From: Euzebya rosea
GTDB taxonomy: Bacteria > Actinomycetota > Nitriliruptoria > Euzebyales > Euzebyaceae
Assembly: GCF_003073135.1 (NCBI RefSeq)
Contig: NZ_PGDQ01000018.1
Span: 1 to 64,000 of the forward strand
Direction: 5' to 3'
DNA length: 64,000 nucleotides
In this document: positions 7,651-61,185 of the stretch, piece by piece
Layout of the letters: each line of letters opens with the position of its first letter
How positions within the stretch are numbered: position 1 is the first letter of the stretch
The notes under the pieces: generated by a model
The model's database searches: none
What the model was told of the DNA's origin: nothing
The model's input: only the letters and a program-made list of their open reading frames with translations
Made by a program: the position numbers and the translations under genes

Positions 7651-10600
7651 CTACGCGGAGTTCAGGATGCGCAGGTCTCCATCAACGCTCTCTGCGGCCA
7701 ACTCGGCGACAGCAAGAAGCTGCACGAACGCCTGGCCTCTACCCGAGTTGACGGCGTCGATGAGCTGTTGTTTGGAGAGCCCGGGCTGCACGATCCCGAT
7801 GGTTGGCACGAGCTGCGGGCGAGTCTGGGGCCAGCTGCCATCGGACGGATCCAGGCGCTGGCGGAGGAGCAGCTCGTCGCCGTGGATGATCGTTGCGTGA
7901 GGCGATTCGTGGCCGTCCAACCGGCGGAGCAGGGACTCCCATAGCCCAGGCGAACGGAAGTGCCAGCGTGATCTGGCGGCCTGGGACACGACGACCTGCA
8001 GGTCGGCGATCCTGAGCCCTGGAGAGGCTGCGCCGCTGGGTTTGGAGTGCCAGAGTCCGAGCCGCACCACGCCGTTCGCGTCCTCCTCGATCAGCAGGTG
8101 GTCGGCGATCTCCCCGCTGCCGTCGTTGCAGATGAGCCACCTGTGGATCCCAAGCATCGGCTGCGCGTCGGCCCATCGTTCGAACGCCGTGTGAACGCAG
8201 ACCTCGGTCGATCTCTTTGGCAGGGACGCCGCAGTCTCCGTTGTGATCCTGGTGCCCGACCAGTCGTGAACGATCAGCTGCTCCGGATCGAAGGGTCGAG
8301 GGACATCCGGCGGCGGGTACAGGGTGTGGCCGACGACGGTCGTGCCGTCCACGAAGTAGGCGGTAGGTGGGAAGTTCGTCAGGAGGTCCGAGAACAAACC
8401 CGTCTGATGCCCATGCCGCACGTCGAGGTCATCACCGGTCACGGTGCCGTCGAGATGCATCTGCCCCGTCCAGATCGGCGGCTCGGGGCTGTCGGCGACG
8501 ATCGCATCGATGGGCAACACGTCGTTCGTGTCAGCCACTTGCTGGAGGTCCCGAGGCACGAGTAGCACGTCCTCGATGGGGATCCCGACGCCCGATTCGA
8601 GGATCCACCCTTGCCCGAGGAGGCTCGGATCGACCTCGGCAGATATGACCGAGCTCTGTGGCCACGCTGTCAGCGTTCGGCCGCGCTCGACGGTCGGTAG
8701 GAGCGGCACCAATGCGGGGGCAACGTCGCGGAGTCCCTCGACCACGCTGGATACCCACTCGTCGTAGGCAGCGAGCGGCACGTACCGCGTCACCCAGATC
8801 TTGGCCTTCTCGAGTGCGGCGCCTCCGCTCGCCGATCGCCCGCCGTAGTCGTACTGGAGGTTGACGTGGCCGAGTGCAGCACCCGACACGTCAACCCGCC
8901 GGAGTCCTTGTTCGACACCGGATCCCAGGAAGTTCCTGTACGCGGTCCCGGCCTGACCGGCCAACCCCGTCGTCCGCACACCGACGGCGGAGACGGAGTG
9001 TCGTGGGAGCCGATCGAGGTAGGCATTCAAGCGTTGGTGGTCGACGAGCCGGCTGCCCTCCGGCATCTCCAGGAGCGCAACAAGGCCTCTCTGAGCCAGC
9101 CCCACGTTGGAGTTCAGCAGGAGGAGTGCAGGGTGGTCGCCCGAAGCCGGACGGTAGGCCAAGAGGTGGAGCTCGAAGCGCCGGGATGCCATCTCGGTGT
9201 CCGTGGACCACCGTGGCTGGTCCCGGTGTTCGGTGACGAGGACGAACAGTCGTGCCGTCTGATGGACTCCTTGGTAGACCACCAGTCCGCCGGCGAAAGG
9301 TTCACCGACAGACAGGCCCTGAGCGTGCTGCCCGTCGCCGACGAACCAGGGGGCCCATCCCTCATCGGCGATCTGAAACGCGATCAGGCGCATCAGTGGC
9401 GTCAGCGCGGCGGCGTTGACGGTGCCGGATCCCTCCGCGGCCACGCCTTGGATGAAGGCTCTGTTGCGCTGCTCCTGCTCCACATGGTCGTCGATGACCT
9501 GAGGCAAGACGGTGGCCCAATCCGCGTCCTCATGGTCGTAGAGCGCCCGCAGGGCTCCCTGAAGGTGCGGGTAGACGTCATGGTCCCGCACCGTCACCAC
9601 GCTCGACGGCGAGAAATGCTCAGGGCTTGTTCGGGCCAGTCGGCCGATCATCTGGACCGTCGGTTCAAAGGACCGGTGCTTGTCGTGGTAGCCGACGATC
9701 CTCAAGCTCGGGAGGTCGTAGCCCTCGCCGAGCATCCCGTCGACGAACACGACACGCACGGCGCCGCTCGCCAGACCATCGAGCACGGTCTGTCTCTTGG
9801 CTGCGCCCATTCGGCTGTGGAGGAGCTCGCCATCAAGTCCCCGATCTGCATACAGCTTTCGGAGTTCACGGAGGCGTTCGATCCCCCTGCCACGGATCAT
9901 CACGGTGGACGCGTGGTGGTTCGGGTCACCGGCAAGATCGACCACCTTGTCCGCAATCGCTGCGTCGGTGCGCACCGGATCAAAGGGCTGGGGTGCGTCC
10001 AGCAGGTGCGGAACGATCGGGTTGAACGAACCGTCCGCGAGCGCCTGCCTGAGGGGGTAGCGGTAGATCATGTCTCCCGGAACGGCCTTGCGGTCCCGCC
10101 GGGTGGGTGTGGCCGTCAGGAGGAGCGCTCGCTTCCAATGGAAGTGCTCGAGGACCGCGCGCCAGGTCTGGGCTGGCGCGTGATGGGCCTCATCGACCAC
10201 GATCAGATCGAACAGATCGGGCGGCGGCGGCTCCCGGTCGACGTAGTGGCTCGGGCTGATGCTGTTGGGCAGGGCCACCACCACGTCATGGCGTCGGATG
10301 TCGTCCCAGTCCTCGGCCAGCCCCTTCATCGCCAGCACATCGGGGTTCGAGTCCTCGTGCAGCGCTCCGACCATGCGGAGGACGCGCTGGTCGGAGAACT
10401 GCGCTGCGATCTGGCCGCGGAGGGCTGCCGATGGGACCAAGACGAGCACGCGCGTCGGTGGAGCCTCCATCAGGTAGGGAGCCGCGATGGCGATGGCGGT
10501 CTTGCCCGTCCCCGTGGGCAGGCTGACCAGCGACGGCACGTCGTCGGTCCGCGACCAATGCGCGATGAGCGCCGCGATCGCACCCTTCTGCGGGCGCCGC

Positions 10601-45164: not shown

Positions 45165-45232
45165 GCCCACGCGAGCACAGCGAGTGAGCCGCCAGGCGAA
45201 GGAGCTCACCGCCGAAGGCGGCTCGCGTGGGC
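45165..45232. repeat. long inverted repeat adjoining the tRNA 3' end
   Basis: GCCCACGCGAGC (45165-45176) is repeated inverted as GCTCGCGTGGGC (45221-45232), with an inner GTGAGC/GCTCAC pair and CGCCGAAGGCG. The right arm includes the last five bases of tRNA-Val. In RNA this would be a strong branched hairpin straight behind the tRNA; as DNA it looks like the end of a palindromic repeat element. Confidence 0.75.
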
Positions 45233-45301
45233 GCTGAGGGGCTCGAACCCCCGACCTCCTCGGTGTAAACGAGGCGCTCTCGCCATCTGAGCTAAGCGCC
45301 C
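45228..45301 (-). tRNA. tRNA-Val (anticodon TAC)
   Basis: A complete cloverleaf on the minus strand: acceptor GGGCGCT/AGCGCCC, D-arm GCTC...GAGC, anticodon stem CCTCG/CGAGG with loop TTTACAC (anticodon TAC, reading GTA and other Val codons), and T-arm with TTCGAGC. It has 73 bases plus the discriminator A and lacks an encoded CCA. One G-T pair occurs in the T-stem. It is followed directly by a strong inverted repeat. Confidence 0.97.
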
Positions 45302-48041: not shown

Positions 48042-48797
48042 TCAGGCCCGGCGGGACGCCAGGTCGGCCAGCCAGGCGGCGAAGCCCTCGGTGCCGTCGA
48101 CGACGAGGTCGGCGGCGGCGCGGACCCGGGGATCGGTCTCCTCGCCGTGGTCGACCGCGACGGCCAGGCCACCGCGGGACCGCACCTCGGCGAAGGCCGG
48201 CAGGTCACCGAGGTCGTCCCCGGCGAAGCAGACGTCGTCGAACCCGTCGGCGAGCAGCCCGACGGCGGTGCCCTTGTCGGCCTCGACGGGAGGGCGCAGC
48301 TCGACGACCATCTTGCCGTCCTCCACCGCCAGCTCGCCCGCGACCCGACGGGCGGTGGCGTCGAGGGCCGCCGCGGCACCTTCCCGATCCGCCGCCCGGC
48401 GCCAGTGGACGGCGAAGGCCCGCCCCTTGTCCTCCAGCTCCGCCCCCTCCCAGCGAGCGACCTCCTCCCCCATCGCGGCCTTGGCCCCTGCCAGCGCGTC
48501 CAGGTAGGGGGCGACGCGCGGGTCGGGTTCGACCGACCCGTCGACGACCCGCTCGAGCCCGTAGAGGCCGACCAGCTCGGCGCCGTCGACGCCGACGCGT
48601 TCGGCCAGGAACCCTGCGGGTCGTCCGGACACGATCGCCAGCCGGCCGACGCGGCCGACCAGCGAGGTCAGCACCGCCCGGGTCGACGACGGCATGGCCG
48701 ACGTCGCCGGGTCCGACACGATCGGGGCGAGGGTGCCGTCGAAGTCCAGCACGAGGCAGGCACGGTCGAGGGGGCCCGGGGGCCATGGCGTCGCCAC
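48042..48797 (-). CDS. otsB: trehalose-phosphatase-like HAD hydrolase (OtsB family)
   Basis: A 251-aa HAD phosphatase: motif I CLVLDFDGTLAPIV, motif II VSGRPAGFLAE, GLYGLERV, KGTAVGLLAD, and motif IV FAGDDLGDLPAF. It removes phosphate from trehalose-6-phosphate or a related sugar phosphate. GTG at 48797 lies 7 bases after the 5-FCL-like stop, making it the last gene of a five-gene operon, while the likely partner synthase is on the opposite strand. Confidence 0.88.
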   Translation of the reverse strand: MATPWPPGPLDRACLVLDFDGTLAPIVSDPATSAMPSSTRAVLTSLVGRVGRLAIVSGRPAGFLAERVGVDGAELVGLYGLERVVDGSVEPDPRVAPYLDALAGAKAAMGEEVARWEGAELEDKGRAFAVHWRRAADREGAAAALDATARRVAGELAVEDGKMVVELRPPVEADKGTAVGLLADGFDDVCFAGDDLGDLPAFAEVRSRGGLAVAVDHGEETDPRVRAAADLVVDGTEGFAAWLADLASRRA

Positions 48798-48804
48798 GGG
48801 TCGA

Positions 48805-49605
48805 TCAGTCCTTTCGTGCGGCCAGCCGCTGCAGCAGCGGTATGGCCGCGATCTTGTCGTCGGTGAGCTCGTCCCACCGGATGCCGGCCGGGCGGGGACG
48901 GCGGCCGGTGACCTCGATCACCCGCGTCGGGGTGACGATCAGGTCCAGCGGCGCGTCGTGGTCGGTGACGGGGATCCGGCCGACGTCGAGGACCTGGCAG
49001 TCGTGCACGGTGGTCGCCACGATCGTGTCGTCGGTGATCATCCCGGCCTCCTGGGCGATCGCGAACTCGAGGTCGGCGAAGCCGCCGCCCTTGCCGAGCC
49101 GGCCGCCGGCCTCGTCGACGGCCACGCAGCCGGTGATGACCAGGTCCACCGGCTCGAGCGCCTCGACGGCGACGGGGATGCCGTGGACCGACGAGCCCTT
49201 GATGGAGGAGGCCTTGCGCGGCGTGACGGGGATGGCGTCGGGCCGCAACGCCACGAACGGATGCTCCTCGGCCAGCCGGGGCACGGCCATGAAGACGGTC
49301 TTGCCGTCCTCCAGCGCCCGCTGCCTGACGGGCCACTGGGGGCTGTCGGGGTTGGACTTCACCGTCACCGCGTCCGCCCACGCGGCGGTCCCCCGCAGCG
49401 CCTCGGCGGCGGCTTCGGCCCCCACGAAGTTGGGGATGCGGTGGAACGCCCCGGGGAAACGTGCGGCCTCGGCGTCGACGACGGCCTGCCACGCCTCCTC
49501 GCGAAGCTCGGCCTTCGCCGCCAGGACCTCGGGGTCCCCGCCGGCGTCGTGGGCGTGGTCCCTGGGCATCCGCGCCTGACCGGATCCCCGTCCGGGGCCT
49601 GCCAT
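48805..49605 (-). CDS. 5-formyltetrahydrofolate cyclo-ligase-like protein
   Basis: A 266-aa protein. LRPDAIPVTPRKASSIKGSS and the ATP/folate motif LGKGGGFADLEFAIAQEAG match the 5-FCL/MTHFS family, in its longer MTHFSD-like version. A relative would close 5-formyl-THF to methenyl-THF. Start: ATG at 49605 overlapping the MiaE stop (TGATG); an internal ATG at 49569 is possible. It is flanked by coupled genes on both sides. Confidence 0.85.
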   Translation of the reverse strand: MAGPGRGSGQARMPRDHAHDAGGDPEVLAAKAELREEAWQAVVDAEAARFPGAFHRIPNFVGAEAAAEALRGTAAWADAVTVKSNPDSPQWPVRQRALEDGKTVFMAVPRLAEEHPFVALRPDAIPVTPRKASSIKGSSVHGIPVAVEALEPVDLVITGCVAVDEAGGRLGKGGGFADLEFAIAQEAGMITDDTIVATTVHDCQVLDVGRIPVTDHDAPLDLIVTPTRVIEVTGRRPRPAGIRWDELTDDKIAAIPLLQRLAARKD

Positions 49606-50249
49606 CAGTGGATGCGCGGCTGGTGGGGCAACGTGGCGATGACGGCGGCCTCCACCTCCGCGAGGTGGGACAGGCGGCCGGTGACGTCCTCGGTCGGGCA
49701 CTCGGCCAGCGCCAGCTCGACGAAGACGCGGTAGTGGCCCGCCTCGGACCGGGCCAGCTCGTCGTAGAAGGCCGCCAGCCGCGGGTCGCCGGCGTCCTCC
49801 AGCGCCAGGGACAACAGGTTCAGCCGCTCCCACGACCGGGCCTCGATCAGCGCGGCGACCAGCAGCTTGTCGCACAGCTCGGCCTCGCCCGCCCCACCAC
49901 GGCGTTCGGCGAGCAGGGCCTTGGCGAACCGGTCGGGCCGGTCGGCCATCAACGTCCAGCCCCGGGCCCGCATGTGGGTCAGGACCTGGTCGAGGTGGCG
50001 GATCTCCTCGCGGGCCAGCTTGGCCATCCGGTAGACGATGTCGTCGCGGTCGGGGTAGCGGTTCAGCATCGACAGCGCCGACAGCGCTGCCTTCTTCTCC
50101 GCGTGGGCGTGGTCGCTCATGGTCGAGCGCAGGTCGGCCAGGGCCACCTCCTCCCAGCCCGGCGGGGTGGCGATGCGCAGGGCGTCGACCCGCTCGTCGG
50201 GGATCAGGGGGTCGCGAACGGTCAGCACGCGGTCCTCGGAGCCGGTCAC
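49605..50249 (-). CDS. miaE: tRNA-2-methylthio-N6-isopentenyladenosine-37 hydroxylase-like (MiaE)
   Basis: A 214-aa di-iron ferritin-like protein: DHAHAEKKAALSAL (first ExxH pair), AREEIRHLDQVL, EARSWERLNLL and RSEAGHYRVFVELAL (later ligands). MiaE hydroxylates the isopentenyl side chain of ms2i6A at tRNA position 37. All ligand positions appear intact. The GTG start overlaps the XdhC stop. Its occurrence in an actinobacterium within this operon is notable but not unprecedented. Confidence 0.88.
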   Translation of the reverse strand: MTGSEDRVLTVRDPLIPDERVDALRIATPPGWEEVALADLRSTMSDHAHAEKKAALSALSMLNRYPDRDDIVYRMAKLAREEIRHLDQVLTHMRARGWTLMADRPDRFAKALLAERRGGAGEAELCDKLLVAALIEARSWERLNLLSLALEDAGDPRLAAFYDELARSEAGHYRVFVELALAECPTEDVTGRLSHLAEVEAAVIATLPHQPRIH

Positions 50250-51082
50250 GGGGTCTCCTCCACGGGGCCGCCGTCGGTCCCCTCCGACCGGTCCCCTGCC
50301 GACCGGTCCCCTTCCGACCAGTCAACGCCCATGCGGCCGCCGTCGCGACCGTTCTCCGCCGCAACGATCTCCGCAACGATCGACAGGGCGATCTCCTCGG
50401 GGGTGCGACTGCCGATGTCCAGGCCGACCGGCGCACGGAGGCGGCCGATGTGGGCCTCGGGGGTGCCGGCGTCGCGCAACCGTCGCACCGCACCGGGGGC
50501 GTGGCGGCGCGACCCGAGCATGCCGACGAACCCGGCCTCGCTGGCCAGCGCCACCCGCAGGACCTCGTCGACGTACGGGGCGTCGTGGTCGCTGAGCAGG
50601 ACCGCGTCGTTGGGGCCGGGAGGAGCGACGAGCAGGAAGCGTCCGGGGTCGTCGGCCTTGACCTCCACGGCGGGCGGCACGTCGGTGGTCCCCCCGGGGG
50701 TCACCACGGTGACGCGGCGGCCGATGAGGTCGGCCTGGCGGGCGACGGCGCAGCCCACGGGGTTGGCCCCGAAGACCAGCACGGCGGCCTCGGGTTCGTG
50801 GACCTCGGCGAACACCTCGATGCTGCGTTCCTCCTCGTCGTGGCCGCCGAACGCCACGCGGCGGCGGATCGGGCCGCCGACCCGGAGGGCCTCCGCGGCG
50901 AGCTCCACGCCGGCGGTGTCGAACTCCGAGCAGCCCAACGATCCGGCGACGGACCCGTCGGCGTCGGCGACCATCTTGGCGCCGGTGTGGGACGAGGCGT
51001 CCTCGCTGACGGAGAGGACCGTCAGCAGGACGACCCGGCGGCCACGGCCCCGGGCGTTGGCGAGTGCGTCGTAGACGTTCAC
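50246..51082 (-). CDS. XdhC-family (molybdenum-cofactor insertion) protein
   Basis: A 278-aa protein: GCSEFDTAGVELAAEAL in the N-terminal XdhC/CoxI domain and a Rossmann-like C-terminal half (VLVFGANPVGCAVARQADLIGRRVTVV, AGFVGMLGSRRHAPG, RLRAPVGLDIGSRTPEEIALSIVAEI). Family members deliver sulfurated Mo cofactor to xanthine-dehydrogenase-type enzymes, but no molybdoenzyme is nearby. The C-terminal 30 residues are a repetitive acidic tail (SEGDRSAGDRSEG). GTG start overlapping the upstream stop. Confidence 0.88.
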   Translation of the reverse strand: MNVYDALANARGRGRRVVLLTVLSVSEDASSHTGAKMVADADGSVAGSLGCSEFDTAGVELAAEALRVGGPIRRRVAFGGHDEEERSIEVFAEVHEPEAAVLVFGANPVGCAVARQADLIGRRVTVVTPGGTTDVPPAVEVKADDPGRFLLVAPPGPNDAVLLSDHDAPYVDEVLRVALASEAGFVGMLGSRRHAPGAVRRLRDAGTPEAHIGRLRAPVGLDIGSRTPEEIALSIVAEIVAAENGRDGGRMGVDWSEGDRSAGDRSEGTDGGPVEETP

Positions 51083-52515
51083 GAGGTCGACTCCTGTTCG
51101 GCGGCCAGATGCACCTCGGCAGCGTGCCGCAGGTCGGTCACGGACTCGGTGACGAAGTCCGAGAGGCGGTCGATGTCGAAGAGGGTGTCCCGGTCGCCGA
51201 GCAGCCCGAAGTGCATCCGGCCGTCGTAGGAGGACACCGCCAGCGACAGCGCCGAGTCCCCGGCGAGGGGGATGAAGGGGTAGGACTCCTCGAGCAGGTG
51301 GCCGGCCAGGAACCTGGGGGTCTGCGGGCCCGGGGCGTTGGACAGCGCGATGTTGTACCGCTGCTCGCCGGAGACCACCCGGGCGGCCAGGGCATGCATC
51401 GCGGGTGGCGCGTAGCCGGCGACCCTGACCAGCTGGTCGGCGGCGACGGCCTGCCGGGACTCCTTCAGGCCGGCCAGCTCGCCCATGATGCGGTACAGCC
51501 GTGCGACGGGGTCCATCTCCATCACGGGCAGCGGCGCGAGGACGCCGACGACCCCGTCGCCGACGGTGAACGCCTCGCCCAGCCCGGGCTGGTGGGTGGC
51601 GCCCTCGTGCACCCGGACGGGGACCATGATCTTGAGGTCCAGGTCCTTGGTCTCGTGCCCGCGCCAGCGCAGCAGCCGGCCCACGGCGTCGCCCACGACG
51701 GTGACGACGATGTCGTTGATCGACCCGCCGAACGCCCGTCGGACGATGCGCAGGTCATCGAGCTGGCAGGTCGCCGTGGCGAACCGGCGGTGCGGGGACA
51801 GGCGACGGTTGAGCGGCGACGTCGGTGCACCCTGCACGAGGCGGCTGACCAGCCCGAAGGCGGACTCGGCCACCGCGCCGGCACGGGGCAGGCCCACCCG
51901 GGGGTCCAGCGACTCGACCGCCGCCAGCCCCACCTGGCGGACACGGGCGAGCCGCGACCCCATGGCGTCGGCCAGCACCGCCGAACGGGGCGGCGGGCGA
52001 TCGGGGTGCCACGCCCGGTTGAAGCGGCCCACCTCGGGTTGCAGCTCGTTGCGGCTGTCGTCGAGCAGGACGCTGAACGGGTCACCCGCCTCGCCGTTGG
52101 CCATGGCGAGGTGGACCTTGCGGAACATGCCGACGCGGTCGCCCTCGAGCCCGTCGATGACGTAGATCTCCCACAGCGGCCGGTCGCGGTCCAGCGGGCG
52201 GCTCATCAGCCGGGACAGGAACTCGCCCAGCTGGTGGGTGTCGCCGGGCGCCGGCAGTGCCGCGTGGCGCACGTGGTAGGTCAGGTCGAAGTCGGGGTCG
52301 TCCACCCACAGCGGTCGGCCGGCGATGGTCGGCAGGGTCCGGACACGTCGGCGGGCGTTGGGGACCTGCTCGATCCGATCGCGGAGCACCCGGACGACAT
52401 CGGCGTACCGAAGGCCGGGCTCGAAGATGCCCAGACCGCCCACGTGCATGTGGTGGTTGGGTGACTCCAGCTCCAGGAAGGAGGAGTCGAGGACGCTGAG
52501 CCGATCGACAGCCAT
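51079..52515 (-). CDS. WS/DGAT-family protein with degenerate catalytic motif
   Basis: A 478-aa protein of the wax ester synthase/diacylglycerol acyltransferase family: DRLSVLDSSFLELESPNHHM at the start, PLDRDRPLWEIYVIDGL, NRRLSPHRRFATAT, GGSINDIVVTVVGDAVGR, and ALSNAPGPQTPRFLAG near the end. At the catalytic site (residues 133-141) the sequence is KVHLAMANG where active members have KVHHAxxDG: the second His is Leu and the Asp is Asn. Esterification of acyl-CoA by the usual mechanism is therefore doubtful. It heads an operon with XdhC, MiaE, 5-FCL-like and OtsB. Confidence 0.88.
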   Translation of the reverse strand: MAVDRLSVLDSSFLELESPNHHMHVGGLGIFEPGLRYADVVRVLRDRIEQVPNARRRVRTLPTIAGRPLWVDDPDFDLTYHVRHAALPAPGDTHQLGEFLSRLMSRPLDRDRPLWEIYVIDGLEGDRVGMFRKVHLAMANGEAGDPFSVLLDDSRNELQPEVGRFNRAWHPDRPPPRSAVLADAMGSRLARVRQVGLAAVESLDPRVGLPRAGAVAESAFGLVSRLVQGAPTSPLNRRLSPHRRFATATCQLDDLRIVRRAFGGSINDIVVTVVGDAVGRLLRWRGHETKDLDLKIMVPVRVHEGATHQPGLGEAFTVGDGVVGVLAPLPVMEMDPVARLYRIMGELAGLKESRQAVAADQLVRVAGYAPPAMHALAARVVSGEQRYNIALSNAPGPQTPRFLAGHLLEESYPFIPLAGDSALSLAVSSYDGRMHFGLLGDRDTLFDIDRLSDFVTESVTDLRHAAEVHLAAEQESTS

Positions 52516-52609
52516 ACCCGACAGCGTAGGAGGACGAGGGCCCTGTCCCCCAACGCACCGGACGGGTTGTGCGCCGATGACGACCGAGTGCGGCAGCATC
52601 GAGGACCAG

Positions 52610-55012
52610 ATGCGCCCATTCCCCACCTCACGGCTCGCCGTTGTTGCCCTGCTGGTCCCCTTCGTCGTGATCGGCGGGCTGGTCCCCGCACCCGCGGCGG
52701 ACGTCGACCCGACCCCGACGACCGACGCCGGGACGGCCGTCGCGTCGGGGTCGACCGCGCCCGAGGGTGGCCCGGTGGACGACGGGTGGCTGCCGGGCCC
52801 CGACGGGGCTGCCTTCGCGACCTTCGAGGGAGAGCCCGCGCCCGGGGGCGGTCCGGTCTGGCCGGGGGTGCGGCTGGATGCCCGCCGGACGACCCTGGCC
52901 GACGGCAAGAACGTCGACGTCCAGATCCTCCACCTCGATCCCGGTGCCGACGTCAGCGTCCGACCGACCCTCGCGGGCGGTTCGGTCCGGGGCACCGCGA
53001 CGGTGGCCGCGCAGAGCGGAGACCCGCTGGCCGGCGCGGTGGCCGCCACCAACGGCGGGTTCTGGCTGCGCGAGCCCTATGGCGAGCCCAACGGCTTCTT
53101 CGCGATCGACGGCCGTCTGGTCAGCGATGCCGAGAGCCAGGGCGTCGGGCCCCGCGGCACCGTCGGCTGGACCGCCGACGGTCGGGTCGTCATCGACCGG
53201 ATCGACACCACGCAGACGCTGATCCTGGCCGACGGCGCCAACCTGGACGTGCAGGGCATCAACCGGGGGCATCGCGAGTACGACGAGCTGTTCGCCGACG
53301 GCATCGACTCGTTGCTGGCCTACACCCCCGACTACGGCGGTCCGGTCGTGGTGACCGAACCCCGGCAGCCACCGCCGCCGGAGCCGACCCCTGCGCCGAC
53401 CGACCCCGACCAGCCGGCACCCCCTCCCCTTCCGGGTGCCGAGCCCCAGCAGCCGCCGGTGGACCTCGCCGTCCTGCGGATCGCCGCGGGGGCATGGCCG
53501 GCCGCCGGCGGGATCGGTGGCACGGTCATCGGCATCTCGCGCGACACCGCCGGGGCGTTCGAGCCCAGCGGCGGTGAGGTCATCGTCGTGGCCACCGGCG
53601 CCGACGCCGGGGCGCTGGACCGGGTCGAGGTCGGCGACCAGGTGGGGCTTGTCACCACCTCGACGGCGCTGGACCCGGCACGCGACCAGGCGTGGGCCCA
53701 GGTCCTCCACGGGCTGGCCGGCGGGCCGATGATCGTCAAGGACAGCCGACCGACCGACCCCGGGGACTGGGTGTCGGAGGGCTTCGAGCCGCAGATCCAC
53801 TCCGACGTCCGTGCCCCTCGGACCGCCATCGGGGTGACCGCCGACGGACGGCTGCTGATGGTGACGGCCGACGGGCGCCGACCGGGCATCACCCACGGCT
53901 TCACCATCGGTGAGCTGGCGGAGTACATGATCTCCCTGGGCGCCGTGGAGGCGCTCAGCCTGGACGGCGGTGGATCCTCCCAGATGGTCGTCGACGGGGT
54001 CCTGCGCAACACGCCGTGCTGCGACAGCGCCATCCGGACCGTCGCCACGTCCCTCCAGGTCGTGCACGCCCACACCTTCACCGCCACCTCCCGGTTGCAG
54101 GGCGCAGGTCGCATCGACACGGCGGTCGCGATCGCCCGGGCGGCCCACCCGACCGGGTCCTCGACCGCGCTGCTGGCAGTCTCCTCCAGCTTCCCCGACG
54201 CCCTTGCCGGCGGACCGCTCGCGGCGGCGCTCGGTGGTCCGCTGCTGCTGACCGGGACGTCGTCGGTGCCGGCCCAGACCGTCCAGGCGCTGCGTGACCT
54301 CGGCGTCTCGTCGGTGCGCCTGCTCGGCGGCGAGGCGGTCATCGCGCCGGAGGTGGTCACCCAGCTGGAGGCCGCCGGATTCACCGTCAGCCGGCTGGCG
54401 GGCGACAGCCGATTCGACACCGCCGCGGTGATGGCCCGTGCGGTGCAGTCCGCCCGCGGCGGCGACGGTCCCAGGCGGGCGTTCCTCGTCCCTGCCTTCA
54501 CCTTCCCCGATGCGCTGATCGCGGCCGGACCCGGCGGGCTGCTCGGCATGCCGGTCCTGCTGACCCAACCCGAGGAGCTGCACCCGGCGGCGGCCGCCGT
54601 GGTCCGCGGGGTCGACGAGGTGGTGGTCGTCGACAGCGACGGGCAGCTGGCACCCGCCGTGATCGACCAGCTGCGCGGCCTCGGGGTCACGGTGTCGCGG
54701 CTCGGCGGCAACGGTCGGTACGCCACGTCGGGGGCGGTCAACGACTGGCTGGCCCAGCAGGTGTCGCTGTCGGCGGAGGTGATCGTGGCCCGCGGCGACG
54801 ACTTCCCCGATGCCCTGGCCGGAGGTCCGCTGGCGGCGTCGCGTCAGGGGCGGCTGATGCTGGTCCCGTCGATGACGCTGGACACCGACCCCGCGACGGC
54901 CGCGTGGTTCGCCGCCAACGCCGGCGGCATCGACGTGATGCGGATCCTGGGCGGCCCGGCCGCGGTGTCCAGCCACGTCCAGTGGCAGCTCGACCGGCTC
55001 GCCGCCGGCTGA
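52610..55012 (+). CDS. exported phosphodiester-glycosidase (NAGPA) domain protein with CWB2 repeats
   Basis: An 800-aa secreted protein. Signal peptide MRPFPTSRLAVVALLVPFVV and following; ATG at 52610 has GAGG five bases upstream (52577 is the alternative). The NAGPA-type domain (PF09992, about 130-490) contains AATNGGFWLREPYGEPNGFF, PRTAIGVTADGRLLMV and ALSLDGGGSSQMVV, with a Pro-rich insert near 260-290. Three CWB2 repeats fill 500-800 (GRIDTAVAIA, FPDALAGGPLAAALGG, LLGGEAVIAPEV). It likely cleaves glycosyl phosphodiesters at the wall to which its repeats bind. Confidence 0.9.
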   Translation: MRPFPTSRLAVVALLVPFVVIGGLVPAPAADVDPTPTTDAGTAVASGSTAPEGGPVDDGWLPGPDGAAFATFEGEPAPGGGPVWPGVRLDARRTTLADGKNVDVQILHLDPGADVSVRPTLAGGSVRGTATVAAQSGDPLAGAVAATNGGFWLREPYGEPNGFFAIDGRLVSDAESQGVGPRGTVGWTADGRVVIDRIDTTQTLILADGANLDVQGINRGHREYDELFADGIDSLLAYTPDYGGPVVVTEPRQPPPPEPTPAPTDPDQPAPPPLPGAEPQQPPVDLAVLRIAAGAWPAAGGIGGTVIGISRDTAGAFEPSGGEVIVVATGADAGALDRVEVGDQVGLVTTSTALDPARDQAWAQVLHGLAGGPMIVKDSRPTDPGDWVSEGFEPQIHSDVRAPRTAIGVTADGRLLMVTADGRRPGITHGFTIGELAEYMISLGAVEALSLDGGGSSQMVVDGVLRNTPCCDSAIRTVATSLQVVHAHTFTATSRLQGAGRIDTAVAIARAAHPTGSSTALLAVSSSFPDALAGGPLAAALGGPLLLTGTSSVPAQTVQALRDLGVSSVRLLGGEAVIAPEVVTQLEAAGFTVSRLAGDSRFDTAAVMARAVQSARGGDGPRRAFLVPAFTFPDALIAAGPGGLLGMPVLLTQPEELHPAAAAVVRGVDEVVVVDSDGQLAPAVIDQLRGLGVTVSRLGGNGRYATSGAVNDWLAQQVSLSAEVIVARGDDFPDALAGGPLAASRQGRLMLVPSMTLDTDPATAAWFAANAGGIDVMRILGGPAAVSSHVQWQLDRLAAG

Positions 55013-58123: not shown

Positions 58124-61100
58124 CTACCGCGGGGGCGGAACGTGGGGCACGGCACCCGGGGGCGGCGTCGGCGGCTCTGGGCGTGTCGTCGGGGGCGGCG
58201 GGACGTCCCGCAACGCCGTGGCGCGGACGATCGCGTCCTCCAGCGCCTCCCGTCCCTGCTCTGCGGCGACCGCTGCGTCCTCCAGCCGGTGGGCGACCAT
58301 CGACAGGTCGTGCAGCAGCTGCTCTGCGCGCTTGGCGGAGTCGCCCATCTGGGCGGCGACCTGCTGGGCCAGCGACGCGGCGACGTCCTGTTCCTCACGC
58401 AGGTTGCGGTTGGCCGCCGAGACCAGCTGGGCGGCGTCGCGGACGGTCTGCTCCATCCGCTCGACCTGCTCCTCCCGCTTCTGCAGCAGCTGGGTGCGCT
58501 CGCTGAGCGACCGCTCCACGGTCTCGGCGGTCTGGGCCAGCTTCTCGTGATGCCCGACTGATCGGTTGAGCTGCGCCGCCAGCGGGGTCACGGCGGCCTC
58601 GACGTGGTCGGTGAGGGTGGCCTGCAGCTGCCCGATGAGGTCCTTCAGCTCGGCACGGGCAGATGAGGACTCGGCCTCGACGCGGCTGGCGGTGGCGTCG
58701 GCAGCGTCCTGCAGGGTGACCATCTCGGCGGTGATCCCGCTGACGGCCTCCTCGACGGTGCGGGCTGCCCACGTGACGGCGGTGCTCAGCTGGTCGGTGT
58801 CGCGGGAGATCGCCGTCGTCGCCGTGCGGACGGCCTCGTCGACGGCGTCGGCCAGCTGGGCGGCGATGCGGTCCTGCTGCTCGACGCTGCGCTGGGTGGC
58901 GGCGTCGGCCTCGGCGGCCAGGCGTTCGGTGATGTCGTGCAGCCGGTCGGCGCTGCGGGCGGCCTGCGTACCGGCGTTGGCCGCGGCAGCTGCGGCGGAC
59001 TCGATGCGCTCGCCCGTCTGGCCCAGCTCGCGGGTCCGGTCCTCGATCTGGGCGGCCAGCCGCTCGCCGGCGTCGGCGACGCGGGCCACATGGGCGGCGG
59101 CGTCGTCGGCGGCCCGCTGGCCGATCGTGGCGGCCCGGTCGCCCATGTCGGTGATGGCGGTGGCCGAGGCGGTCAGCAGCCGCTGGACGGCGGTCTCGGC
59201 CCCGTCGGTGACGCGGGTCGCGTGGGTGGTGACGGCGGCGGTCAGCCGCTCCTCCACGTGGTCGGCCGTCGCGGTCAGCCGGGTGGTGGACTCGCCGGTG
59301 CTGGTCTGCAGCCGCTGGACGAGCTCGCCGGCGTCGGCGATGACCCGTGACAGGGCCGCCTCGCCGGTGCGTTCGATCCGGGTGGCGGCGCCGCTGGTGG
59401 CCTGCTCGAGGCGGTCGGCGGCACCGGTCAGGCGGTCGTTGAGGTCGGCGGTCGCGACGCCGACGCTGCGGACCCCGTCCTCCACGCCGGTGCCGATCTG
59501 GTCGACCGCGGCCTGGACGGCCTCGGTCAGCCGGGCCAGCTGGCGGTCGGCGGTGTCGTTGAGCCGCTGCTCGGCGTTGGTGACCGCCGTCTCCGCGCGG
59601 CTGCCGATGGCGTCGACGACGCGTTCGACGACGGTGCTGGCCTCGCCGATGCGCTTGGCCGCCTCGACCCCGGCGCTGCTGACCCCCTCGACGGTCTGCC
59701 GGCCGGTGGCTGCGAGCTCCGACTGCGCCCGTTCCATCGCGGCATGCAGGTCCGTGGCCGCCCGGCCCGAGGCGTCCTCGTGGCGGCTCGTCACCGTGTC
59801 GATGCGGGTGACGGCGGAGCGGACCGCGTCGGTGATGGCCTGGACCTGCGCACCCGCGCCGCTGTTCATCGCCTCGACGGCGGCGTTGGCGGACACGTCG
59901 AAGCGGGTCAGCCCGTCGGCCAGCTCGCCGACGAGGCGATCGGTGGACTCGGTGATCGCGGCGACGCTCTTGGTCCCAGACTGCGCGATCCGGTTGGCGA
60001 TGCTGCCGCCGGACTGGTCGGCCGCGGTCGTCGCGGCCTCCATGCGCTCCACGGCGGACCGCACGGCCAGGCTAAGGCGTTCGCTGGTCCGCTCGACCTC
60101 GCGGGTCATGGCGTCGCTGACGCCCTGCGCGGACGCCACGATCGCCTCGCCGGCGTCGGCGGCGGCACGGGCGGCCGCGTCCTTCAGCGACGCGGTGGCG
60201 ACGTCGACCTGGCTGCCGGTCTCGGCCAGCGCATCGCGGAGCTGTCCGGTCGCGGCCGTCGACGCCTGCTCGGTGGCGCTGGTGGCCTGCTCCAGGCGCT
60301 GGACCGCTTCGACGATGGCGATGTCGAGGCGTTCGGTGGACGCTCCCACCTCGTCCGCCAGGCGTTCGGTCAACCCGTTCGCCTGCGCAGCGATGGTGTC
60401 GGCGGCCTCGCGGGCCGCCTGGGCGGTCACGCGGGCCAGCTCGTCGCGGGCGTTGGACAGGCTGCGGGCCGAGGACTCGGCTGCGGTGCTGACCAACCCC
60501 TCGATGCGGGCGGCCACCTCGGCGTTGTCTCGGGCGGCCACCTCGATGGCGCGGCTGGCGTCGGCCGCCGCGTCGTGCAGGGTGGAGGTCGACTCCTGCA
60601 GGGTGCTGACGGCCTCGGCGACGCTCCCCTGGATGCCGGCCGACGAGTCGTCGGTCGCGGTCCGGTAGACCTCGGCGGCGACCTCCAGGCGGTCGACGAG
60701 GTTCGCAGCTGCCTCGGCCAGCCGGTCGGCCACCTCGGTGGTCCGCGTGTGCAGCGTGCCGAGGTCCTCGGAGGCGAGGACCTGCAGCTGCTCGGCCACG
60801 CCGGCGACGGACATGTCGAGCTGGTCGGCGATGCCGCGGACGAGGGCGGTGGTGTCGGCGACCTGCTGGGCCAGGCGCTCCTCGACCTGCCGGACGACGT
60901 CGTCGCCGGTGTCCCTGACCGCCCCGGCGTGGGTGGCTGCCGCGGTCTGGACCGCGACCTCCAGCCGCTCCACGGCGGCACGGGTCGCGTCGTCGAGCCG
61001 CTGGACGGACCCGACGCCGGCAGCGCTGACCCGTTCGGCGGCGTCCTCGGCCTCGGTCAGCAGCGACTCGGTGACCGTCAGCAGCTGCTGGGTGGCGTCA

Positions 61101-61177
61101 CGGTTGGCGTCCACGCCCTGCAGGATGGCGAGGACGGCTTCGCGGATGGGATCGTCGGAAGAGGAGGAGTCGGCCAT
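58124..61177 (-). CDS. 1017-aa long coiled-coil protein of unknown function
   Basis: A 1017-aa protein that is almost entirely Ala-, Thr-, Glu- and Val-rich helix with heptads from about 40 to 950 (for example ERLEVAVQTAAATHAG, SERLSLAVRSAVERMEAA), ending in a proline-rich tail (PPPPTTRPEPPTPP). It shows no ATPase, membrane or signal segment and none of the conserved hairpin of chemoreceptors. Repeating units of roughly 40-50 residues recur (ERL...AVQRLEQAT...). It may be a scaffold or filament former. It sits 8 bases behind the zinc metallopeptidase stop, so the two are one unit. Confidence 0.8.
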   Translation of the reverse strand: MADSSSSDDPIREAVLAILQGVDANRDATQQLLTVTESLLTEAEDAAERVSAAGVGSVQRLDDATRAAVERLEVAVQTAAATHAGAVRDTGDDVVRQVEERLAQQVADTTALVRGIADQLDMSVAGVAEQLQVLASEDLGTLHTRTTEVADRLAEAAANLVDRLEVAAEVYRTATDDSSAGIQGSVAEAVSTLQESTSTLHDAAADASRAIEVAARDNAEVAARIEGLVSTAAESSARSLSNARDELARVTAQAAREAADTIAAQANGLTERLADEVGASTERLDIAIVEAVQRLEQATSATEQASTAATGQLRDALAETGSQVDVATASLKDAAARAAADAGEAIVASAQGVSDAMTREVERTSERLSLAVRSAVERMEAATTAADQSGGSIANRIAQSGTKSVAAITESTDRLVGELADGLTRFDVSANAAVEAMNSGAGAQVQAITDAVRSAVTRIDTVTSRHEDASGRAATDLHAAMERAQSELAATGRQTVEGVSSAGVEAAKRIGEASTVVERVVDAIGSRAETAVTNAEQRLNDTADRQLARLTEAVQAAVDQIGTGVEDGVRSVGVATADLNDRLTGAADRLEQATSGAATRIERTGEAALSRVIADAGELVQRLQTSTGESTTRLTATADHVEERLTAAVTTHATRVTDGAETAVQRLLTASATAITDMGDRAATIGQRAADDAAAHVARVADAGERLAAQIEDRTRELGQTGERIESAAAAAANAGTQAARSADRLHDITERLAAEADAATQRSVEQQDRIAAQLADAVDEAVRTATTAISRDTDQLSTAVTWAARTVEEAVSGITAEMVTLQDAADATASRVEAESSSARAELKDLIGQLQATLTDHVEAAVTPLAAQLNRSVGHHEKLAQTAETVERSLSERTQLLQKREEQVERMEQTVRDAAQLVSAANRNLREEQDVAASLAQQVAAQMGDSAKRAEQLLHDLSMVAHRLEDAAVAAEQGREALEDAIVRATALRDVPPPPTTRPEPPTPPPGAVPHVPPPR

Positions 61178-61185
61178 CGTGGGGA

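Follow-up and report, generated by a model that had tools for sequence, protein, structure and literature searches.

What does a protein of the WS/DGAT family do once it has lost the family's catalytic motif, HHxxxDG? The question is raised by a gene of Euzebya rosea in the window, by which we mean the whole 64,000-nucleotide stretch of DNA analysed here. The original prediction, made from the sequence alone, held that this gene encodes a conserved member of the family with a degenerate motif, that it heads a tight operon and that its role is something other than acyl transfer, perhaps lipid binding or regulation. We compared the gene with its orthologues, with more distant relatives and with known systems, and weighed what the protein may do.

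A WS/DGAT-family protein with an altered catalytic site

The interval of the original prediction, 51079-52515, proved exact, and the gene lies on the minus strand, which had been left unstated. Its ATG start codon is at 52515 and its stop codon occupies 51081-51079; a plus-strand reading of the same interval was rejected, as it gives an unrelated frame. At the site that should read K-x-HHxxxDG, the protein carries K133-V134-H135-L136-A137-M138-A139-N140-G141. As had been read, the second His is thus replaced by Leu136 and the Asp by Asn140 in KVHLAMANG, while the first His and the Gly are retained. The motif HHxxxDG is absent from the window protein (HLAMANG) and from all 14 orthologues, this gene included.

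Membership of the WS/DGAT sequence family is given by three curated models, all scoring above their cut-offs: PF03007 (204.1 bits against 23.6), PF06974 (87.9 bits against 20.7) and TIGR02946 (379.7 against 309.95). The rest of the family pattern had been described as well kept, and both the domain scores and the conserved positions bear this out. A set of 54 motif-bearing relatives has 48 positions with a conservation of 95% or more; 35 of these are retained by 90% or more of the 13 full-length members of the orthologous clade, and both motif positions fall among the 13 that are not. The window protein has both the PLW and the ND motifs; across the full-length clade members, PLWE and SNxPGP are kept in 13/13, the Asp of ND in 13/13 and its Asn in 11/13. 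Clade-wide replacements were found at Ser301 (Arg in 13/13) and Val394 (Ala in 13/13), and Asn320, a residue that motif-bearing rows conserve, has given way to Asp or Glu in 10 of the 13. In the alignment, Arg301 (Ser elsewhere), Asp293, Tyr341, Glu346, Arg386 and Arg401 are new residues invariant in the clade.

The AlphaFold2 model of the window protein (pLDDT 82.6, pTM 0.83) has the predicted fold of a WS/DGAT. Its best solved matches are WS/DGATs, with a Z of 34.7 and an rmsd of 2.4 over 343 residues for 6chj_A and a Z of 31.9 and an rmsd of 2.9 over 350 residues for 7nxg. Lower matches of the model include condensation domains, a dehydratase (8s6l), a lyase (6wcs) and CER2/GL2 complexes, in keeping with the superfamily. 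In the model the motif strand ends at residue 135 and residues 141-143 have a pLDDT below 50, and in that of a motif-bearing relative (L064) the strand is predicted to reach 136 and to be followed by a short helix; no inference was drawn from either. Compared with WS/DGAT enzymes (TIGR02946; PF03007 and PF06974; 6chj from Marinobacter and 7nxg from Acinetobacter), the protein thus shares the domain architecture, the predicted fold, PLW, ND and the first His. It differs in that the second, catalytic His and the Asp are missing in all orthologues and the Asn of ND is lost in 2 of 13.

Distribution and descent of the altered motif

Protein searches for orthologues covered 101 relatives, 66 genomes of the class and 396 genomes of the phylum. 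They retrieved 14 orthologues including the window gene, 13 of them full length and one (in G026) found in fragments, in 14 of the 30 genomes of the order. Three further genomes of the genus have orthologues with identities of 97, 79 and 75%, and for nine other genomes of the order the full-length identity is 55-59%; beyond the orthologues, full-length matches drop to 45% or less. All 14 share the change that had been noticed in one gene. The second His is replaced in every case (Leu in 13, Val in one), as is the Asp (Gly in nine, Asn in four, Ala in one), and Lys133 and the first, structural His are always retained. Because the change is common to all orthologues, chance and sequencing error were rejected as explanations, along with decay in one genome. 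The degenerate site has a conserved pattern of its own rather than drifting freely, since position 136 is Leu in 12 and position 139 Ala in all 13 of the full-length rows; the loop 141-144, by comparison, varies more than most of the protein does in the clade. At greater distance, all nine loci taken from the phylum search have HH and DG.

No orthologue was found in 16 of the 30 genomes of the order, so the job of the gene is dispensable. The window's own genome (G000) has four PF03007 genes, and the motif is lost in the window gene only, the other three carrying HHATIDG, HHALVDG and HHSMFDG. In G006, which is assembled as one contig, and in G013, the motif-less gene is the sole PF03007 match. 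Its role there is therefore independent of a sister WS/DGAT, and for the same reason a regulatory subunit of such an enzyme was rated low as a candidate.

Loss of the second His was also found elsewhere in the family. Among the named loci L041-L117 (n=77), selected by similarity as the best 80 of 500, five come from the class of the window and 72 from outside it; two of the 77 (L052 and L091) were counted as HH after alignment. The second His is absent in 64 of the 72 similarity-selected loci, and the Asp is retained in 61 of the 64. In this best-80-of-500 sample the replacing residue is Gln, Pro, Asn, Ser or Leu. Lentzea and Geodermatophilaceae are among the sources of relatives that lack the His but have the Asp. 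Three Saccharothrix loci (L071, L078 and L090; WS/DGAT gene at about 8001-9350) read KTHQAMVSG; in this other actinobacterial lineage the second His and the Asp have both been lost separately from the present clade. In Rhodococcus jostii RHA1, the WS/DGAT homologues Atf4, Atf10 and Atf14 are reported to have Lys, Ser and Pro, respectively, in place of the second His (PMC2667194). In the accessible text of that source only this residue is reported as changed, whereas here the Asp is replaced too, across a whole clade. As loss of the His alone is frequent among relatives, these alignments suggest that this branch of the family may tolerate it without losing activity. If the His-less relatives are active, the His is dispensable there and only the loss of the Asp distinguishes the clade.

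A tree was built by a quick method from 94 selected rows of the 146 aligned, with the motif columns excluded; L070 had been left out of alignment A1, as its range spanned a stop. A single clade unites the 13 full-length copies (SH-aLRT 100), and its sister group consists of 27 rows from the class, with an SH-aLRT of only 83. The stem of the clade is 0.79 changes per column long, compared with 0.33 for the sister group, and the mean depth within the clade is 0.57, compared with 0.71. Considering that the depth within the clade resembles that of the sister group and follows a long stem, the branch lengths point to a burst of change and then ordinary constraint. In the sister group, 23 of the 27 rows have HH and four (L020, L124, L126 and L127) have lost the second His alone. 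The second His changes at least eight times on the tree and the Asp twice, in this clade and in the Saccharothrix row L071. Frames are open in all 14 orthologues, and no clade copy has an internal stop. Values of dN/dS range from 0.036 to 0.295 in seven clade pairs, and a single comparison pair of intact paralogues gives 0.236. These values indicate that the gene is under purifying selection.

Gene neighbourhood

Features of the locus and of the rest of the window are collected in Table 1.

Table 1. Features located in the window, with their positions, strands and supporting evidence.
Feature	Coordinates	Strand	Evidence
WS/DGAT-family protein with degenerate catalytic motif (478 aa)	51079..52515	-	Open frame, PF03007 and PF06974, TIGR02946, 13 further orthologues
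Degenerate HHxxxDG site, codons of K133-V-H-L-A-M-A-N-G141	52093..52119	-	Read in the sequence; codons compared over 13 orthologues
XdhC/CoxI-family protein	50246..51082	-	PF13478, PF02625; synteny
MiaE-like (tRNA hydroxylase family) protein	49605..50249	-	PF06175; below the NCBIfam MiaE cut-off
5-formyltetrahydrofolate cyclo-ligase family protein, start assigned by eye	48805..49569	-	PF01812
Trehalose-phosphatase	48042..48797	-	PF02358; TIGR00685 over cut-off
Divergent neighbour: phosphodiester glycosidase domain and CWB2 cell-wall-binding repeats	52577..55012	+	PF09992, PF04122
1018-aa protein	58124..61180	-	Apolipoprotein-like match, sub-threshold (53.6 bits against a cut-off of 90)
tRNA-Val (tac)	45227..45301	-	Sole tRNA gene found in the window

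The 1018-aa protein is weakly conserved in two congeners, and its region has long open frames on the opposite strand too.

The stop of the WS/DGAT-like gene overlaps the start of the XdhC-like gene by four bases (51079-51082), and the XdhC-like gene overlaps the MiaE-like gene by another four (50246-50249). With these successive overlaps, to speak of the gene as heading a tight operon is fair. XdhC adjoins the WS/DGAT-like gene in 10 of the 13 other orthologous loci, and trehalose-phosphatase and an oxidoreductase are each within reach in eight of the 13, several of the contigs being short. No XdhC match was found in G008, G012 and G018, which carry the WS/DGAT-like gene. The neighbours were not seen at 96 non-clade loci (97 were searched, L037 belonging to the clade). 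This search is weak for L018-L036, where the flanks reach about 1.5 kb per side at most, and is not valid for the glycosidase, trehalose-synthase and cyclo-ligase genes.

The same neighbours persist at empty sites, that is, at 12 loci of genomes without the WS/DGAT-like gene; the set comprises 12 of the 13 such genomes that bear XdhC, G019 being left out. An oxidoreductase or glycosidase gene lies within 300 bases of XdhC, measured between match ends, in eight of these 12 loci, and an ACT-domain gene within 350 bases, measured likewise, in three, with one contig too short to tell. The glycosidase/CWB2 gene adjoins XdhC in several genomes without the WS/DGAT-like gene. Since the neighbours stay linked in its absence, the operon lends little support to any function. 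A functional clue from the operon was rejected because the gene occurs without XdhC and the neighbours without the gene, and the idea that the nearby trehalose genes tie the protein to trehalose lipids was set aside, given that neighbours persist at the empty sites. The locus informs on position, not on function; its neighbours are housekeeping-like and indicate no lipid pathway.

What the protein may do

In WS/DGATs, a structural role is reported for the first His of the motif and a direct part in catalysis for the second (PMC11948995). The change in all 14 orthologues, taken with purifying selection, supports a conserved role that does not run through canonical HHxxxDG chemistry. To this extent the original prediction is partly supported, and the support from the operon is slight; a non-acyltransferase role, in lipid binding or regulation, is putative. 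The protein probably owes its retention to a function other than the synthesis of storage fat. The second, catalytic His and the Asp are lost and the first His is kept, and CER2, GL2 and the X-domain provide precedents, so that a non-catalytic binding protein is the most likely reading. We give a probability of about 0.5 to a WS/DGAT-derived pseudoenzyme that would bind acyl-CoA or lipid without transferring acyl groups.

The catalytic His (to Leu or Val) and the Asp were lost together, on the stem of a single clade that the searches found in one order only. Meanwhile the predicted fold, SNxPGP, PLWE, the first His and the Asp of ND were retained, and the gene stayed under purifying selection. 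The family positions that are kept suggest that the acyl-CoA or lipid tunnel may still bind its ligand. The protein would then work by binding: it might carry an acyl chain or present it, or it might dock on a partner enzyme. The latter is suggested by analogy only, with BAHD proteins of the CER2 type and the X-domain of glycopeptide NRPSs, which have the same fold. The partner, if there is one, is probably not another WS/DGAT, because two genomes have the motif-less gene as the only WS/DGAT found.

CER2 is reported to function without its catalytic His (PMC5489795), and GL2 to have complemented without an intact motif in one assay, in which respect it differs from GL2-LIKE, which required the motif (PMC11269236). 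The predicted model of the window protein shares the superfamily fold with the CER2-LIKE/GLOSSY2 BAHD chains 9uu3_A (Z 14.9), 9kqg_D (Z 14.5) and 9lpg_E (Z 15.1); these were taken as GL2/CER2 from title and length, and a Z of about 15 is common to ordinary superfamily members. The CER2-LIKE BAHD proteins are a plant family with about 10% identity to the window protein, and the partner of CER2 is a fatty-acid elongase. The window protein itself does not match the plant BAHD family, since Pfam at E 0.001 gave only PF03007 and PF06974. In glycopeptide NRPSs, the X-domain has an inactive HRxxxDE and is reported to recruit P450s (PMC6565677). It is likewise a superfamily member with a degenerate HHxxxDG kept as a recruitment platform, although it lies within an NRPS and the window protein stands alone, with WS/DGAT domains only. 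We tentatively raise, as an analogy that is probably too specific, a bacterial counterpart of CER2 found across the order, in which a WS/DGAT would have become a non-catalytic partner that binds acyl chains and might set chain length or deliver acyl groups to another enzyme, also where there is no other WS/DGAT. No description of a motif-less WS/DGAT clade was found in the literature searched, whose coverage mostly excluded subscription papers.

Alternatively, the protein might still be an acyltransferase that works without the His/Asp pair, for instance through substrate-assisted deprotonation or with a highly reactive acceptor. Such an enzyme would account for the retention of the substrate-side motifs PLWE, ND and SNxPGP and for relatives without the second His, widespread and conserved in the similarity-selected best 80 of 500. 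WS/DGATs with an altered first His are also reported to be active (PMC5513132), but the residue changed here is the second, directly catalytic one (PMC11948995). Moreover, the Asp is gone as well, and the Leu or Val at position 136 in all 14 orthologues cannot serve as a base. Both His residues are reportedly essential, to go by the title of Stoeveken 2009. Set against each other, these points make continued acyl transfer unlikely, if a serious contender.

The old pocket might also have acquired a new chemistry, that of a hydrolase, lyase or isomerase, as has happened in some superfamily members. Such an enzyme would be consistent with the new, clade-invariant residues, from Asp293 to Arg401, with the acidic residue at position 320 in 10 of 13 members and with the presence of 6wcs and 8s6l among the matches of the predicted fold. 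As the analysis revealed neither a nucleophile nor a metal site, we think it rather improbable. That the gene is decaying and has no function would fit its absence from more than half of the genomes of the order and the empty sites at the same locus. The open frames, the dN/dS values and the 35 of 48 conserved positions retained argue against decay, as do orthologues outside the genus that are intact despite their low identity, and the selection signal makes it very unlikely.

With a binding protein as the preferred reading, the finding bears on how the family is annotated. Curated models name the protein an O-acyltransferase and score it well over the cut-off, yet it may not be an enzyme. Counts of WS/DGAT genes used as a proxy for storage lipid can therefore include proteins without the catalytic residues, and in G006 and G013 such a protein is the only WS/DGAT found. 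It is a WS/DGAT-like protein, and its filing as a WS/DGAT enzyme should await an assay. A clade with joint loss of the His and the Asp, beside relatives that have lost the His only, makes the residues needed for WS/DGAT chemistry directly testable, and the same contrast bears on whether bacteria reuse the WS/DGAT fold as a binding protein.
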